34,378 nucleotides of DNA from an uncultured Bacilli bacterium (GTDB taxonomy: Bacteria; Bacillota_I; Bacilli_A; RF39; UBA660). This document shows positions 4,443 through 27,200 of the stretch, one piece after another. Location: contig CALVSK010000008.1 in the NCBI GenBank assembly GCA_944359015.1, forward strand, positions 1 to 34,378, written 5' to 3'. The position numbers and the translations under genes were made by a program. The notes below the pieces were generated by a model. That model saw only the letters and a program-made list of their open reading frames with translations, was not told the origin of the DNA and ran no database searches. Positions within the stretch are counted from its first letter, which is position 1, and every line of letters starts with the position of its first letter.

Positions 4443-4479
4443 ACAATCCTTTCTTGCACTTATGTTGATAACTCGCGGA

Positions 4480-4506
4480 CCCTCGCCGTTTTAAATGCGG
4501 CGAGGG
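4480..4506. other. GC-rich hairpin downstream of putative DGR variable repeat
   Basis: A perfect 9-bp stem, CCCTCGCCG (4480-4488) with CGGCGAGGG (4498-4506), has a 9-nt loop. It stands 15 nt beyond the stop of the 4522-6309 gene. Neither strand has a T-run after it, so it is not an intrinsic terminator, and its GC content is extreme for this genome. In characterised DGRs a GC-rich hairpin or cruciform just past the variable repeat promotes retrohoming. I infer that role from position and form. An attenuator or RNA-stability element for pgk is the alternative. Confidence 0.6.
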
Positions 4507-4521
4507 CTTTAGTTTCTCCTA

Positions 4522-6309
4522 CTAACTTATTCTATATGGATGACTCTCAGTTCCATTTCCACCTACTAACAAGACATCAGAGTTTAGATAAAAGACTGGC
4601 CTGACCGAATAGCCATTGTTCGCGTTATTGCCGTCCAAGAAGCCGTTGCTGTACAGAATGAAAACGTCAGTACTAGACGACGAGATCGGAGTAAGTGTCC
4701 ATTCAGTAGAACCTAAATACAACCAATTTGTACTTCGCAAAGTTGAATCATTGTATCCATTTAATCCTGTTGTCCAATAATCTGTGCTTGCTGCAAATCC
4801 ATAATCACTTACATACATTAATCCTATTTTTTTCATACTATCTGTTGTACTACTTGAACTACTTCCTACTTCTGTATCATAATATTGTTTTGCTGTATTT
4901 GTTAAACTCCATTCCATTCCTCCGACTTTCCATGTGTGCGTAGCTATTTTATTTTGCCATGTTGCACTTAATGAATTATAATATGTTGTATTTAAGGTAC
5001 TTCTCATTGTTGAACTACTCCATGTATTGCTATTATTTGAATCCCATGCATAACTTCCATAACTTGTTGATTTAATTAGTTTTACTTCATTATCGAATAC
5101 GCCAATAATGCGGTATAAGTTATCACTTGGGCAACTTGCATCATCACTTCCAAAGCATACATAATTATTTGGATTTGCTCCAGCGTATCTATAAGAATTA
5201 TCATTTGCATCTATTATTGCTTGTCCAAAAGTCCCACTTCCCATTTCTTCAAATAACAAAGCACCATCTCTCATCACTGCTCCATATCCAACACACTCAC
5301 TTTGAGATGCTGGAACATCAGTTTCACCATTCATTTCGCTATATACTGGAATTTTACTAGTTTTTGTTTCACATATTCCACTACTACTATTCCAATTTAC
5401 TTCTTTAACCACTCCTTCCGGAACTCCAACTGTTATTATTGATGCATCATAATATTCTGGTGTTCCATCAAAGGTTAATGAAAATATTCTTTCACAATCA
5501 GTTTCATTAGATGCTTGTTCACCTCCGCTTTCAGTTAAAGCAAAAACTTCATTATCATTATAAGTACATATTCCTTGTGTTGAAATCATACTTCCATCAT
5601 GATAATATAGGCCATTTGACCCATCTGTATATAAATTCTTTATAACTGTTGCAAATGTACTATCATATTCTTCTCTTTGCATTATAATGTCTGCATCCAT
5701 ACTTTTACCGGTATTAGCTTGTTGATCACTATCCAAATTAATAAATGTTGCAGTAAAGTCCCATTCTTGTACTGTTGGAGTAGTACCATTAGCTGAAATA
5801 CTATAATTAATGGCAATAGGAAACAACCCACTTGCAGTAGTTATATCAAAGCCTTTAACTTGAGTTCCATCTGCCCCAGATGCTGTTACATAATTTAATC
5901 CCTCAATTGAAGTAACTTCTTGACCACTTGGATTAGTAATGCTTAAAATAATTTCTGGTTTAGAATCAGAAGATGTATAAACAAATTCATTATAATTAAT
6001 TCTAAAATAAACATAATAAGTATAAGTAGCAGTGTTAGTACTATTATTTGCAAGTAATGTTGCTGTACCAGTAGCATTACTACTTAAGTTACCTGCATTA
6101 ACACCAAAATTAAATTGATTAATATTTAATGAAATATCATTAGTAATATTAAATTGCAAATCATCCGTAGTATTTGCATTAATATCAACATCTTTTGAAT
6201 CCCCGCTTTGTAATTGTGGTTGAAAAAATGCAAAAGTTACTCCAACAACAGCTAAAATACTAATTATAATTAATAACAAAAATTTATTTTTTCTTAACCA
6301 TTCTTTCAT
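4522..6309 (-). CDS. Membrane-anchored surface protein with C-terminal lectin-like variable domain (putative DGR target)
   Basis: 595 residues from the ATG at 6309 (AGGA 9 nt upstream; another ATG at 6315 is too close to that site). Residues about 8-27 are one hydrophobic segment after a basic N-terminus, a signal anchor. Residues about 30-230 are Asn/Thr/Ser-rich beta-type sequence, broadly like secreted TasA/CalY or pilin-like proteins. The C-terminal half reads NLYRIIGVF...EVKLIKS...AWDSNN and ends with EWTLTP...GYSVRPVFYLNSDV...GNGTESHPYRI. That layout resembles the formylglycine-enzyme or C-type-lectin fold common in DGR variable proteins of gut Firmicutes; the family call is from memory. 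The last 60 codons have markedly different base composition. The gene has a strong promoter, and lies between gapA and pgk where no such gene is normally found. Ligand unknown. Confidence 0.75.
   Translation of the reverse strand: MKEWLRKNKFLLLIIISILAVVGVTFAFFQPQLQSGDSKDVDINANTTDDLQFNITNDISLNINQFNFGVNAGNLSSNATGTATLLANNSTNTATYTYYVYFRINYNEFVYTSSDSKPEIILSITNPSGQEVTSIEGLNYVTASGADGTQVKGFDITTASGLFPIAINYSISANGTTPTVQEWDFTATFINLDSDQQANTGKSMDADIIMQREEYDSTFATVIKNLYTDGSNGLYYHDGSMISTQGICTYNDNEVFALTESGGEQASNETDCERIFSLTFDGTPEYYDASIITVGVPEGVVKEVNWNSSSGICETKTSKIPVYSEMNGETDVPASQSECVGYGAVMRDGALLFEEMGSGTFGQAIIDANDNSYRYAGANPNNYVCFGSDDASCPSDNLYRIIGVFDNEVKLIKSTSYGSYAWDSNNSNTWSSSTMRSTLNTTYYNSLSATWQNKIATHTWKVGGMEWSLTNTAKQYYDTEVGSSSSSTTDSMKKIGLMYVSDYGFAASTDYWTTGLNGYNDSTLRSTNWLYLGSTEWTLTPISSSSTDVFILYSNGFLDGNNANNGYSVRPVFYLNSDVLLVGGNGTESHPYRIS
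4590..4701 (-). other. Putative DGR variable repeat (VR) within the surface-protein gene
   Basis: The 30 codons at 4600-4689 are 50% G+C by hand count (45 of 90 bases), and none has A in the third position. Codons on either side show the usual A/T-ending bias. The stretch follows WTLTP and encodes a run of Ser, Asn, Asp, Gly, Phe, Leu and Tyr. Adenine-directed mutagenesis from an AAC/AAT-rich template gives this pattern: varied first and second bases with fixed non-A third bases. The edges are approximate, because no template repeat is available to align. Confidence 0.6.
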
Positions 6310-6332
6310 AAACATCTATCCTTACTATAAAA

Positions 6333-17042: not shown

Positions 17043-18451
17043 TTATTCATTATTTACACAGGCATTATCAATAAATACTTCATAAGGACTTGAACTAGAG
17101 CCGTTTCCAGATTTCCAATAAACACACGACTTTAAAGACATAACTGGTCTAATAGTTGCAATATTATTTACAATTTCGGACACTAATTGGCTTGAAGAAT
17201 TATAAATAAACATTGTAGACTGAGAGCTACTTAAAGTTATACAAAACAACATATAAGGACTCATTGTCCACCAAGATTTTAAATTTGTTATACTATTTCC
17301 TTCAGCATTTAAAGAATACCATCCATTTAATCCATTATTAATTGCTGCCCCCGCATAAACAAGTTCATCTGCTGTCATTAGTCCAACAGAATATTTCAGT
17401 TTATTATTTCCTATAATATCACTTGCGGTAAATTTGTCTTCAATACTTGCATTTTCATAAGACAATAAACTTCTAGTATTTCCACATTTATATGAAGGCA
17501 CAGGAATCTTATTATCTACCCGCATCATAGAAGCAAAATAAATTTCAATATAATCATATTCACTAGTGGACCGATCATTACAATATATAGCAGTTTTACT
17601 TATATAAGAATCATACAAAAAATTTTGAACATCTGATTTAGAATATAAGCTTTTTTCATACCATTCATCTATCACATTTTTTACAACTGAATCATTTGTA
17701 TTTAATCTATCATTTTCTAATCCTTCTCCATCTCCATACATATACCCCACGTATTCAGAAGATTTTTTTCATCATTAAATACACTTTCTCCAATATAACC
17801 TTCTGTAGTAAAAGGACTGGTTCCAGAATACAGCAATCTTATACTATCATCCTCATTAATCCAAATAATTCTCCAATATAAGTCTTGATTATTTTCGTTT
17901 TTTCCAAACTTTACCCAATTATTTAAAGCATTTCCAGCAAAATAATACACATCTTCTCCAACACCATCATTATTAATATCCTCAGTTTCATTTCCCAAAG
18001 CAACAAATATTTGCCCAACATTATCTTCTGAATACGAAACAGAAAAAACTGTACGAGTTAAAACGTTAGGATTATCCTGTAAAATAACATCTTTTAAAGT
18101 ACTTTCATTAAACAAATCAAAGTACACATAGCACTTATCACTTTTATTTGTTTGCATTATTATTCTTTTTGTTTCTTCATTCCAAGAAAGTGTTCCACCA
18201 TTTTCACAGCCCGATAGTCTTTCATTAAATACATAATCATCCTGAGATCACACTGTGTCCGTTGAAATTTGATATTCACCACTACCAGCCTCTGTTTCAT
18301 ACATCATACTTATAGCATTTGAAGAAATCTTACTTTCGGATTTTTCATTAACAACAACATTAGAAGTATAATTTTTTTCACTAATAAATACTGTAAAACC
18401 TACACATACTAAAACAAAACAAAGAAAATAAAAAAATTTATACCACTTCAT
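17043..18451 (-). pseudogene. Broken surface protein of the lectin-like (DGR-target-like) family
   Basis: Three collinear pieces read as one protein of about 470 residues. Piece one (18451-18251) has a membrane anchor and ends at a TGA (18248-18250) that is in frame with piece two. Piece two resumes with SQDDYVFNERLSGCENGGTL and continues with KSDKCYVYFDLF and YWRIIWINEDDSIRLLYSG. A 7-A tract (17763-17769) then shifts the frame; one extra A would restore EYVGYMYGDG and the last piece. The C-terminal piece contains CNDRS, VGLMTADELVYAG, WWTMSPY and IRPVMSLKS...GNGSSSSPYEV, the hallmark end of the C-type-lectin-like domain. The family is the same broad type as the 4522-6309 gene, but it has no GC-shifted repeat and no downstream hairpin. 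UGA is a real stop here, so the gene is inactive or needs recoding. Confidence 0.8.
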
Positions 18452-24235: not shown

Positions 24236-27200
24236 TTATAAAATTTTCTCTAAAAGTGTAACTAAATAAAACACAAAATGTTTATCTAAATTATTTATAT
24301 ATAATGTAATAATTATTTTTTTATTTACATATTTAATATTAAAATATTTAGATAAAGCCATTGCTTCAATAATTAATTTATCACCTTTTATATTATTTGA
24401 TACTTCCTCTGGCAATGTTAACTCTACAAGTCTATCTGTTTGTATTACATTTTTTATATTATATTTTTTTGCTATCTTTTCTAACCATTCTTCATACATA
24501 TAAATCAACATTTCTTCTGTAATTTTACCAAATCTATCTTCTAATTCTTCTTTTACTTCAATTAATTTATTATATGAATCAATTTCATTAATTTTTTGAT
24601 GAATTTCAATTTTAATATCTTCATCACTTACATACTCATCGCTAATATGGGTATCAACATTTATTAAAGACTTAACATCTTCGTCTTCATCTTCAACCAC
24701 TAAAATGCCTTGCTGACGTTTTAACTCATCTTCAATCATTTTCATATATAATGATATTCCTACAGAATCTACAAATCCTGCCTGCGATGCCCCAAATATA
24801 TCTCCTGCTCCTCTAATACTTAAATCACGCATTGCAATTTTATAACCACTACCTAGTTCTGTAAATTCCTTTATAGTATTTAATCTTTTAATAGAGATTT
24901 CATTCAATACTTTATTTTTTTGATACATTAAATAAGCATAAGCTACTTTATCACTTCTTCCTACTCGTCCTCTAATTTGATAAAGTTGACTCAACCCAAA
25001 ATTCTCGGCATCATGGATTATTAAAGTATTAACATTAGGAATATCTATACCACTTTCAATTATAGTAGTACATACCAATATATCATATTTGTAATCAATA
25101 AAATCATTCATAATATTATCTAATTCAATTTTATCCATTTTTCCATGAGCATAAGTTATTCTTGCATCTGGAACTAAATCTTTAATATGTCTTACATAAT
25201 CGGATATTGAATCAACTAAATTATACAAGATAAATATTTGTCCATTTCTAGAGAGTTCTTTATAAATAGCATCTCTAATTAAGTAATCATCTTCAACCAC
25301 CACATAAGTTTGAACTGGATATCTATTAACTGGGGGCGTATCAATTATAGATAAATCACGAAGACCAGATAAAGCCATTTTTAATGTTCGAGGAATCGGT
25401 GTAGCACTTAATGTTAAAACATTTACGTCATTTTTCAATTCTTTAATTTTTTCTTTATGAGTTACTCCAAATCTTTGTTCCTCATCAATTACTAATAATC
25501 CTAACTTTTTAGGTTTAACATCTTCACTTAATATTCTATGGGTTCCAAATAAAATATCTATTTTCCCATCTTTCATATCATTGACAATTTTTCTAGCATC
25601 TTTAACAGAAATATGCCTGTTAAGTAAGGCAATTTCCACTGGCCAATCTTTAAAACGTTCTTTTGCCACAGTATATTGTTGTTTTGATAATATTGTCGTA
25701 GGACATAAATACATTACTTGATAATTATTTAATACTGTTTTAAATATCGCTCTTAATGCTACTTCTGTTTTACCAAATCCAACATCACCACAAAGTAATC
25801 TATCCATAGGAATTGTACTTTTTAAATCATTATTTATTTCTAAAATACTTTTTTCTTGGTCTTTAGTAAGCTCATATTTAAATGATTGTGCAAATTGCTC
25901 TTCTTCTACATAATTTTTATATGGTAATTTATTTAATGATAATCTTTTTTTATACAAACTAATTAAATCAGCAGAAATATCTTTAATTTTACTACTAATA
26001 TATTTTTTTGTTTTTTCCCAATTTGGACTTCCTAGTTTATTTAGCTTTGGTGGGTTACCATCTTTTCCTGTATATTTGTAAATTAAATTTATTTTCTCCA
26101 CAGGAACATAAATTTTATCAGAACCAACATAATTAATTGTTAAAAAATCTTTTTTTACTCCACGAACAGTTAATGTAGTTATTCCTTTATATATTCCTAT
26201 TCCATGAGCAACATGTACAACATAATCCCCAATTTCTAGCTGATTATAATCTTTTACTTTCTTTCCTATATGATAATTATTTTTATAATTATTTATTGTT
26301 ACATTAACTTTTTCAATATCATATTCACCAATAACAACATACTTATCTAAAATAAATCCATTTTGTATAGGACTTTTAATAATTTTTGCATCTTCAATAT
26401 ATTCTTTAATTTGCTTTGCTTGTTTATCATTTGATAAATAAAAAATTACTTCTTTTCCATTTTTTATCCAAGTTTTATAATCATTTGCTAGTTTTTCAAA
26501 ATTTTGATTATAATTTTCAATATTTTTTGCTCTTAAATCATTTTTTCCACTATTAATTAAATCAATATAGATTCTATCATTATTTTTGATTTCTTCTAAA
26601 CTATACATTAAATCATAATTAATATTTTTTTCATTACAATATTCCAATATATCTTCCTGCAACTTTAAATAACTTGCTTTTATCTGTTCTTCATTTATAT
26701 AAACAACTATTGGATTTAAACAATAATCGAATAATGAATTACTTTTTTCACTATTAATTTCATCAATTGCTTTAATAACAAGTTTTTCAATACTTCCCGA
26801 AGAAAGTTGAGTATTTTCATCAAAATATCTTATTGATTCAATAATATTTCCATCAAATTCAATTCTAACTGGATGTCGTTCTTCAATTGGATAAACATCA
26901 ACAATAAAACCTCTTACTGCAATTTCACCACTGGCAGTAACAAGAGAATCTATTTTATAACCTAAATTAACTAATTTTTCTACCAAATTGTCTCTTTTAA
27001 TTTCTAAATTATTGTTGATAACTACAGAGTTATCCACATCTAACGCCGGTAAATGCTTCAAATACCCCATTAAATTAGTAACAACTATGTTTTTTTCAGA
27101 AATTTTTAATTTATTTAAAGTTTCCAATCTTTTATATTTTAACTCCGGGGAAGAAGCGACAATCATCGATGATAAAAAATCATCCATAGGAAATAATAAA

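Follow-up and report, generated by a model that had tools for sequence, protein, structure and literature searches.

A GC-rich gene end in an uncultured Bacilli bacterium as a probable remote target of a chromosomal DGR

The 34,378-nucleotide stretch of DNA analyzed here (the window) corresponds to contig C8 in a genome assembly of an uncultured Bacilli bacterium (genome G000; 976 kb, 56 contigs, 90% complete). Based on the present data, the GC-rich segment at the 3' end of one gene in this window is almost certainly a remote (trans) variable repeat (VR) of a chromosomal DGR. The genome contains a template repeat (TR), VRs that differ from it specifically at adenines, a reverse transcriptase (RT), an Avd protein and hairpins of conserved geometry, and together these support the DGR role that the earlier note had assigned to positions 4600-4689 and the hairpin behind them. 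In the mechanism that we propose, the core on contig C15 (Avd, RT and TR) would make TR-derived cDNA with miscopied adenines, and this cDNA would take the place of the 3'-terminal VR in several unlinked surface-protein genes with DUF6273, including the window gene. The exposed strands and loops of a C-type-lectin domain would in this way be re-randomised at 15 AAY codons, with the hairpin behind the stop codon marking the target site. Both the retrohoming reaction and the part of the hairpin in it are what we infer from these elements.

The window gene is flanked by chromosomal genes, namely pgk and a transglutaminase-like ORF. The middle region of its product is common to paralogs, and the protein is presumably displayed on the surface and binds a ligand. 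The gene had initially been placed at 4522-6309; the end at 4522 was correct, but the ORF starts at 6315, position 6309 being the second in-frame ATG. Recounting the segment 4600-4689 gave exactly the composition described previously: 45 of the 90 bases are G or C, and none of the 30 codons has an A in third position (C 14, G 8, T 8), while such an A is present in 222 of the 598 codons of the whole gene. Among the 90-nt stretches of the 34-kb window, this segment has the maximal G+C content (mean 22.1, sd 5.6; none higher), and both framework segments, WTLTP and SVRPVFYLNSD, are located as claimed. Chance is ruled out because the G+C island, the A-specific pattern and the hairpin recur at other loci of the genome. 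A second DUF6273 gene in the window (17043-18157, minus strand) has an AT-rich 3' end with neither a VR nor a hairpin; it consists of two overlapping ORFs (17717-18157 and 17043-17750) and is possibly frameshifted.

Table 1. Features of the target locus in the window and of the DGR RT on contig C15 (L049).
Feature	Position	Strand	Description
DnaA-box-like 9-mer TTATCAACA	4463..4471	-	Follows the hairpin by 8 nt; position conserved at other VRs in the genus
Hairpin	4480..4506	-	GC-rich 9-bp stem, 9-nt loop CATTTAAAA, 93 nt beyond the last base of VR homology; candidate cruciform
DGR target gene, 597 aa	4522..6315	-	Signal-anchor-like hydrophobic N-terminus, paralog-like middle, C-terminal DUF6273 ending in the VR
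DUF6273 domain, residues 370-597	4525..5208	-	Pfam PF19789, 5e-8; C-type-lectin fold predicted, VR near the C-terminus
VR	4600..4689	-	88 bases aligned to the C15 TR; 13/33 adenines and 7/55 other bases changed, p 0.0047
IMH-like 3' end of VR (GGCTATTCGGTCAGG; TR: GGCTATTCGGCCAGA)	4600..4614	-	TR/VR homology ends there
Predicted membrane anchor or signal sequence (MFMKEWLRKNKFLLLIIISILAVVGVTFAFF)	6220..6315	-	N-terminal; inferred from the translation
DGR RT	L049:4087-5148	-	RVT_1 match; motifs GLPIGNMTSQF and YMDDY

Searching the genome with the TR identified eight VRs on six contigs (two on C2, two on C15, and one each on C3, C8, C11 and C27; C8 is the window). Six of them are remote from the RT, and both C15 VRs flank the core. 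No VR lies anywhere other than at the 3' end of a DUF6273 gene, and each of the eight ends a DUF6273 domain; DUF6273 paralogs without similarity to the TR mostly lack a GC island. Over 88 aligned bases, which include 33 TR adenines and 55 other bases, the eight VRs deviate from the TR in 119 of 264 adenine cells versus 30 of 440 other cells (p ~5e-33). This A-specificity is significant for each VR alone (p <= 0.005), and all TR adenines except one vary in at least one VR. A template repeat matching the window VR is present, but the mismatches are not confined to adenines as had been anticipated, since non-adenine bases have changed as well (Table 1). The TR contains 15 AAY codons, in which changes of the adenines can never produce a stop codon; this accounts for the absence of A from the third positions. 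By analogy with BPP-1, the bases at which the homology ends may act as an IMH.

The VRs C2b, C3, C15a and C15b carry only one to three non-A changes each (one in C2b). Two non-A differences of the window VR, G26T and T29C, are common to C2a, C11 and C27, and three further ones are common to subsets of the VRs. Because of these shared differences, an older or second template seems to underlie the group of C8, C2a, C11 and C27, and the window VR may derive from a different, older or lost template; a search of the 90%-complete assembly for a second TR (GTTTTC allele) found none. The GC-rich ends of two further DUF6273 paralogs, located on C12 and C40, are of another kind (TVSR). At L059 and L062 (contigs C40 and C12 of G000) and in relatives (L063-L112), we observed a second VR-like type (EWTISR...VRPSFYL), likewise with GC-rich ends, and relatives carry a more distant DGR RT (~50% identity). 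This RT may serve the second VR-like type, and the ends on C12 and C40 may be part of the second type of DGR that relatives have; neither the distant RT type nor its TR was found in G000.

Both the DGR RT and the template repeat expected elsewhere in the genome turned out to lie on contig C15, where Avd, RT and TR form a core flanked by two local target genes. The TR is a non-coding, adenine-rich repeat directly after the RT stop codon. An Avd-like ORF of 118 aa overlaps the start of the RT; its best matches are phrog_3206 (4e-11), annotated as 'Avd protein of DGR', NF033474 DivGenRetAVD (4e-9) and Pfam bAvd (5e-6), the latter two being below their curated cut-offs. The full-length RT of a relative had as its best PDB match 8ub7, a Bordetella DGR RT entry. 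RTs of DGR-carrying phages are among the best phage matches of this relative's RT, with less than 60% identity at best. No obvious phage genes were observed among the ORFs in 8 kb around the core, and a domesticated prophage origin of the C15 DGR is possible. Two RTs in the genome exceed the Pfam cut-off, on C5 and C15. The C5 enzyme (L050:2393-3343) was rejected as a DGR RT, being a retron-type RT (PADLOC RT_Ec107-like, 5e-124), and a retron assignment of the C15 RT was rejected on its weak and mixed PADLOC matches.

It should be noted that the C15 RT frame contains an in-frame TAA at residue 182 in the G000 assembly. Recoding of this codon was rejected, as the frames of relatives are uninterrupted there. 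Because of this stop the DGR may be silent in the G000 assembly, and the system may be inactive at present in the assembled strain. An RT of the C15 kind is present in 23 of the 30 genus genomes, one genome per species being compared, and the TR is split by an insertion in G006 (C17, L173:5340-8830) and G008 (C43, L181); for these reasons gain and loss of the DGR seem to be frequent. The two insertions have nearly the same interruption point and TTATCGGACA-type ends, and the G006 insert of ~3.5 kb encodes three recombinase-like (RIT-like) proteins. A mobile element thus resides inside the DGR template in two species.

The proposal that the variable segment ends a lectin-like domain agrees with the PF19789 match and with the modelled C-type-lectin fold. 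An AlphaFold2 model of residues 370-597 (pLDDT 85) had its best solved fold match in a chain of the Thomasclavelia IgA peptidase (Z 17.4), the aligned range lying inside the N-terminal DUF6273 domain of that chain (residues 31-322). The next matches were C-type lectins and the Treponema denticola protein TvpA, with Z 5-7 (TvpA, 2y3c, Z 6.2). From this model the target domain of the VR is predicted to adopt a C-type-lectin fold; a DUF6273 sequence search against the PDB gave nothing useful. A VR at the C-terminus of DUF6273, a domain that has been likened to a C-type lectin, is a known DGR target (PMC11792537, PMC10743442). It occurs in this position in Faecalibacterium prophage DGRs, and the tentaclin phages nd4 and nd12 have DUF6273 target domains likened to a C-type lectin (PMC11792537, PMC10743442). 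However, those are phage proteins, whereas the window gene lies between chromosomal genes and a search of the phage collection with its domain gave no match.

The perfect 9-bp GC-rich hairpin described 15 nt past the stop codon, without a T-run on the gene strand, was confirmed. Folded as DNA it reaches -12.2 kcal/mol (z -3.1; none of 200 shuffles equalled it). Seven of the eight VRs have a hairpin behind them, with equal spacing and, in the C15b stem, a mismatch in the outer pair; at C11 the VR is present without one. The exact stem was found eight times in the genome, each time behind a DUF6273 gene: at the seven VRs and at C41. The C41 gene (L056:365-650) has the 3' end of the window gene together with hairpin and 9-mer, but no VR, possibly through segment exchange or VR loss. 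In relatives, stems of other sequence are found at about the same distance with the pairing kept, and between G000/G028 and G013 compensatory changes have altered both sides of four of the nine pairs. Other genera of the family have DGRs with TR/VR pairs and hairpins mostly ~85-120 nt behind the VRs, and the hairpin pattern matched in 10 viral contigs. RNAalifold on a MAFFT alignment of the divergent hairpins, in which the stems were not lined up, gave no structure; the comparison is based on single folds, a gapless 27-nt alignment and a relaxed detector that admits imperfect stems. As in phage BPP-1, the hairpin probably marks the DGR target site.

Several features are shared with the BPP-1 system (mtd/avd/TR/brt), including adenine-specific TR/VR differences, Avd, a YMDD RT, a GC-rich hairpin behind the VR and a C-type-lectin target. 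In contrast to BPP-1, the present system is chromosomal and was not seen in phage, it has eight VRs in trans or cis, and its hairpin has a 9-nt loop, is 93 nt away from the VR and is followed by a DnaA-box-like 9-mer. In BPP-1 the loop is a 4-nt GAAA of which both size and sequence are critical, loop changes killing homing, and phage DGR hairpins have a 4-nt GRNA loop 4-34 nt from the VR (PMC3240598). The window locus has no target site of this phage type, although its 9-bp stem is within the 7-10 bp range of DGR inverted repeats. The target-site pattern found here, a VR with a distant, large-loop hairpin, is distinct from that of BPP-1 and phage DGRs. The far, large-loop hairpin breaks the BPP-1 target-site rules, yet similar hairpins and distances recur across the family.

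The DGR itself is of a known kind and its remote targets have precedents; the target-site architecture is the new part. The chromosomal TvpA DGR of T. denticola has up to seven targets, most of them remote from the core, which encode C-type-lectin variable proteins and are left over where the core was lost (PMC4891356). That system resembles the present one in its chromosomal location and remote C-type-lectin targets, and TvpA is among our fold matches, but it belongs to a different phylum and has an FGE-type target domain rather than DUF6273, whereas here the genome is ~1 Mb. Cyanobacterial DGRs likewise combine a single core with numerous remote genes for C-type-lectin targets, in which the VR is 3'-terminal (PMC7517822); their targets are mostly cytosolic proteins, unlike the membrane-anchored candidates described here. 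Surveys that require a VR beside the RT miss remote targets (PMC8144416), and the window shows that one VR alone suffices to recognise a DGR target. In this ~1-Mb genome of an uncultured Bacilli bacterium, a single template faces eight surface-protein genes.

A quite different explanation for the window segment would be horizontal transfer or codon selection without any retroelement, the hairpin being a transcription terminator. A high G+C content and a GC-rich stem after the stop codon would also be expected of a transferred segment with a terminator, but a TR with A-specific mismatches contradicts this reading, there is no T-run behind the stem on the gene strand, and the stem occurs in the genome only behind target-type 3' ends, with distance and pairing kept in relatives. 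We consider this explanation extremely improbable. It is far more conceivable, though we still doubt it, that the window VR is the product of a DGR but has ceased to be diversified, the RT being broken or its own template gone, and has since been subject to ordinary evolution or to gene conversion between paralogs. The stop codon in the RT frame is consistent with such a fossil, as are the non-A differences shared by C8, C2a, C11 and C27, which point to an older or lost template, and the C41 gene, whose 3' end and hairpin without a VR are a sign of segment exchange. However, the window locus retains an intact frame, hairpin and box, and the RT stop could reflect strain variation or an error in the assembly. 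Moreover, C2b shows just one non-A difference to the TR, which argues for recent homing somewhere in the lineage.

The target sites of a DGR of the type proposed here may have a further component. The 9-mer TTATCMACA, in the form TTATCAACA or TTATCCACA, follows the hairpins of the genus by ~5-10 nt and lies 129-134 nt after a conserved RP codon. It was found at 17 of the 27 genus sites, always in sense orientation; a separate count gave 18 exact sense matches, all within one 20-nt bin, and no antisense match, and one further genus site carries TTATCGACA. In contrast, 23 low-GC DUF6273 genes and 18 VRs of other genera were all devoid of it. On C7, the region upstream of dnaA contains a cluster of both TTATCAACA and TTATCCACA, the presumed oriC boxes of this organism. 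Genome-wide there are 113 copies in 976 kb on both strands, so that one match in a six-position window corresponds to 0.00035; no joint p-value is given for the sites, because they are related by descent. The pattern CGGAGG, 2-10 nt and 9-mer had 26 matches in 30 genomes, 22 of them behind VR-type DUF6273 ends, and the reversed control had none.

Judging from the 9-mer alone, DnaA may bind at these sites. A target site in this genus would then consist of VR, hairpin and DnaA box, and DnaA beside the hairpin could aid cDNA homing by opening the DNA, by extruding a cruciform or by tying homing to replication initiation. We regard this as unlikely at present; if true, it would represent a replication-coupled form of DGR retrohoming, and the 9-mer offers a testable lead on how target DNA becomes accessible to the cDNA. 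Among the papers searched, a single, unrelated one mentions both DGRs and DnaA. A 9-mer without a DnaA role, which would be either a lineage-specific sequence spread by duplication of the target 3' ends or a site at which some other protein binds, is the reading that we consider rather probable, given that all genus sites go back to related target genes, that the 9-mer is absent from other genera, and that it is absent at the C15b, G028, G013a and G029 sites though the hairpin remains. On the other hand, the 9-mer has persisted behind hairpins with several distinct sequences, with drift in the bases that follow it, it is an exact match to the degenerate 9-mer of the cluster upstream of dnaA, and at C11 both hairpin and 9-mer have been lost. 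Two other matches to the CGGAGG pattern, at L253 and L265, are modules of hairpin and 9-mer that retain no more than the final codons of a target gene, and look like relics of deleted DGR targets. Two opposed DnaA-box 9-mers, 17 nt apart, are also present in the window at 27013-27038, inside an mfd-like gene, and similar close pairs occur on C1 (1194/1211) and C9 (12628/12646).
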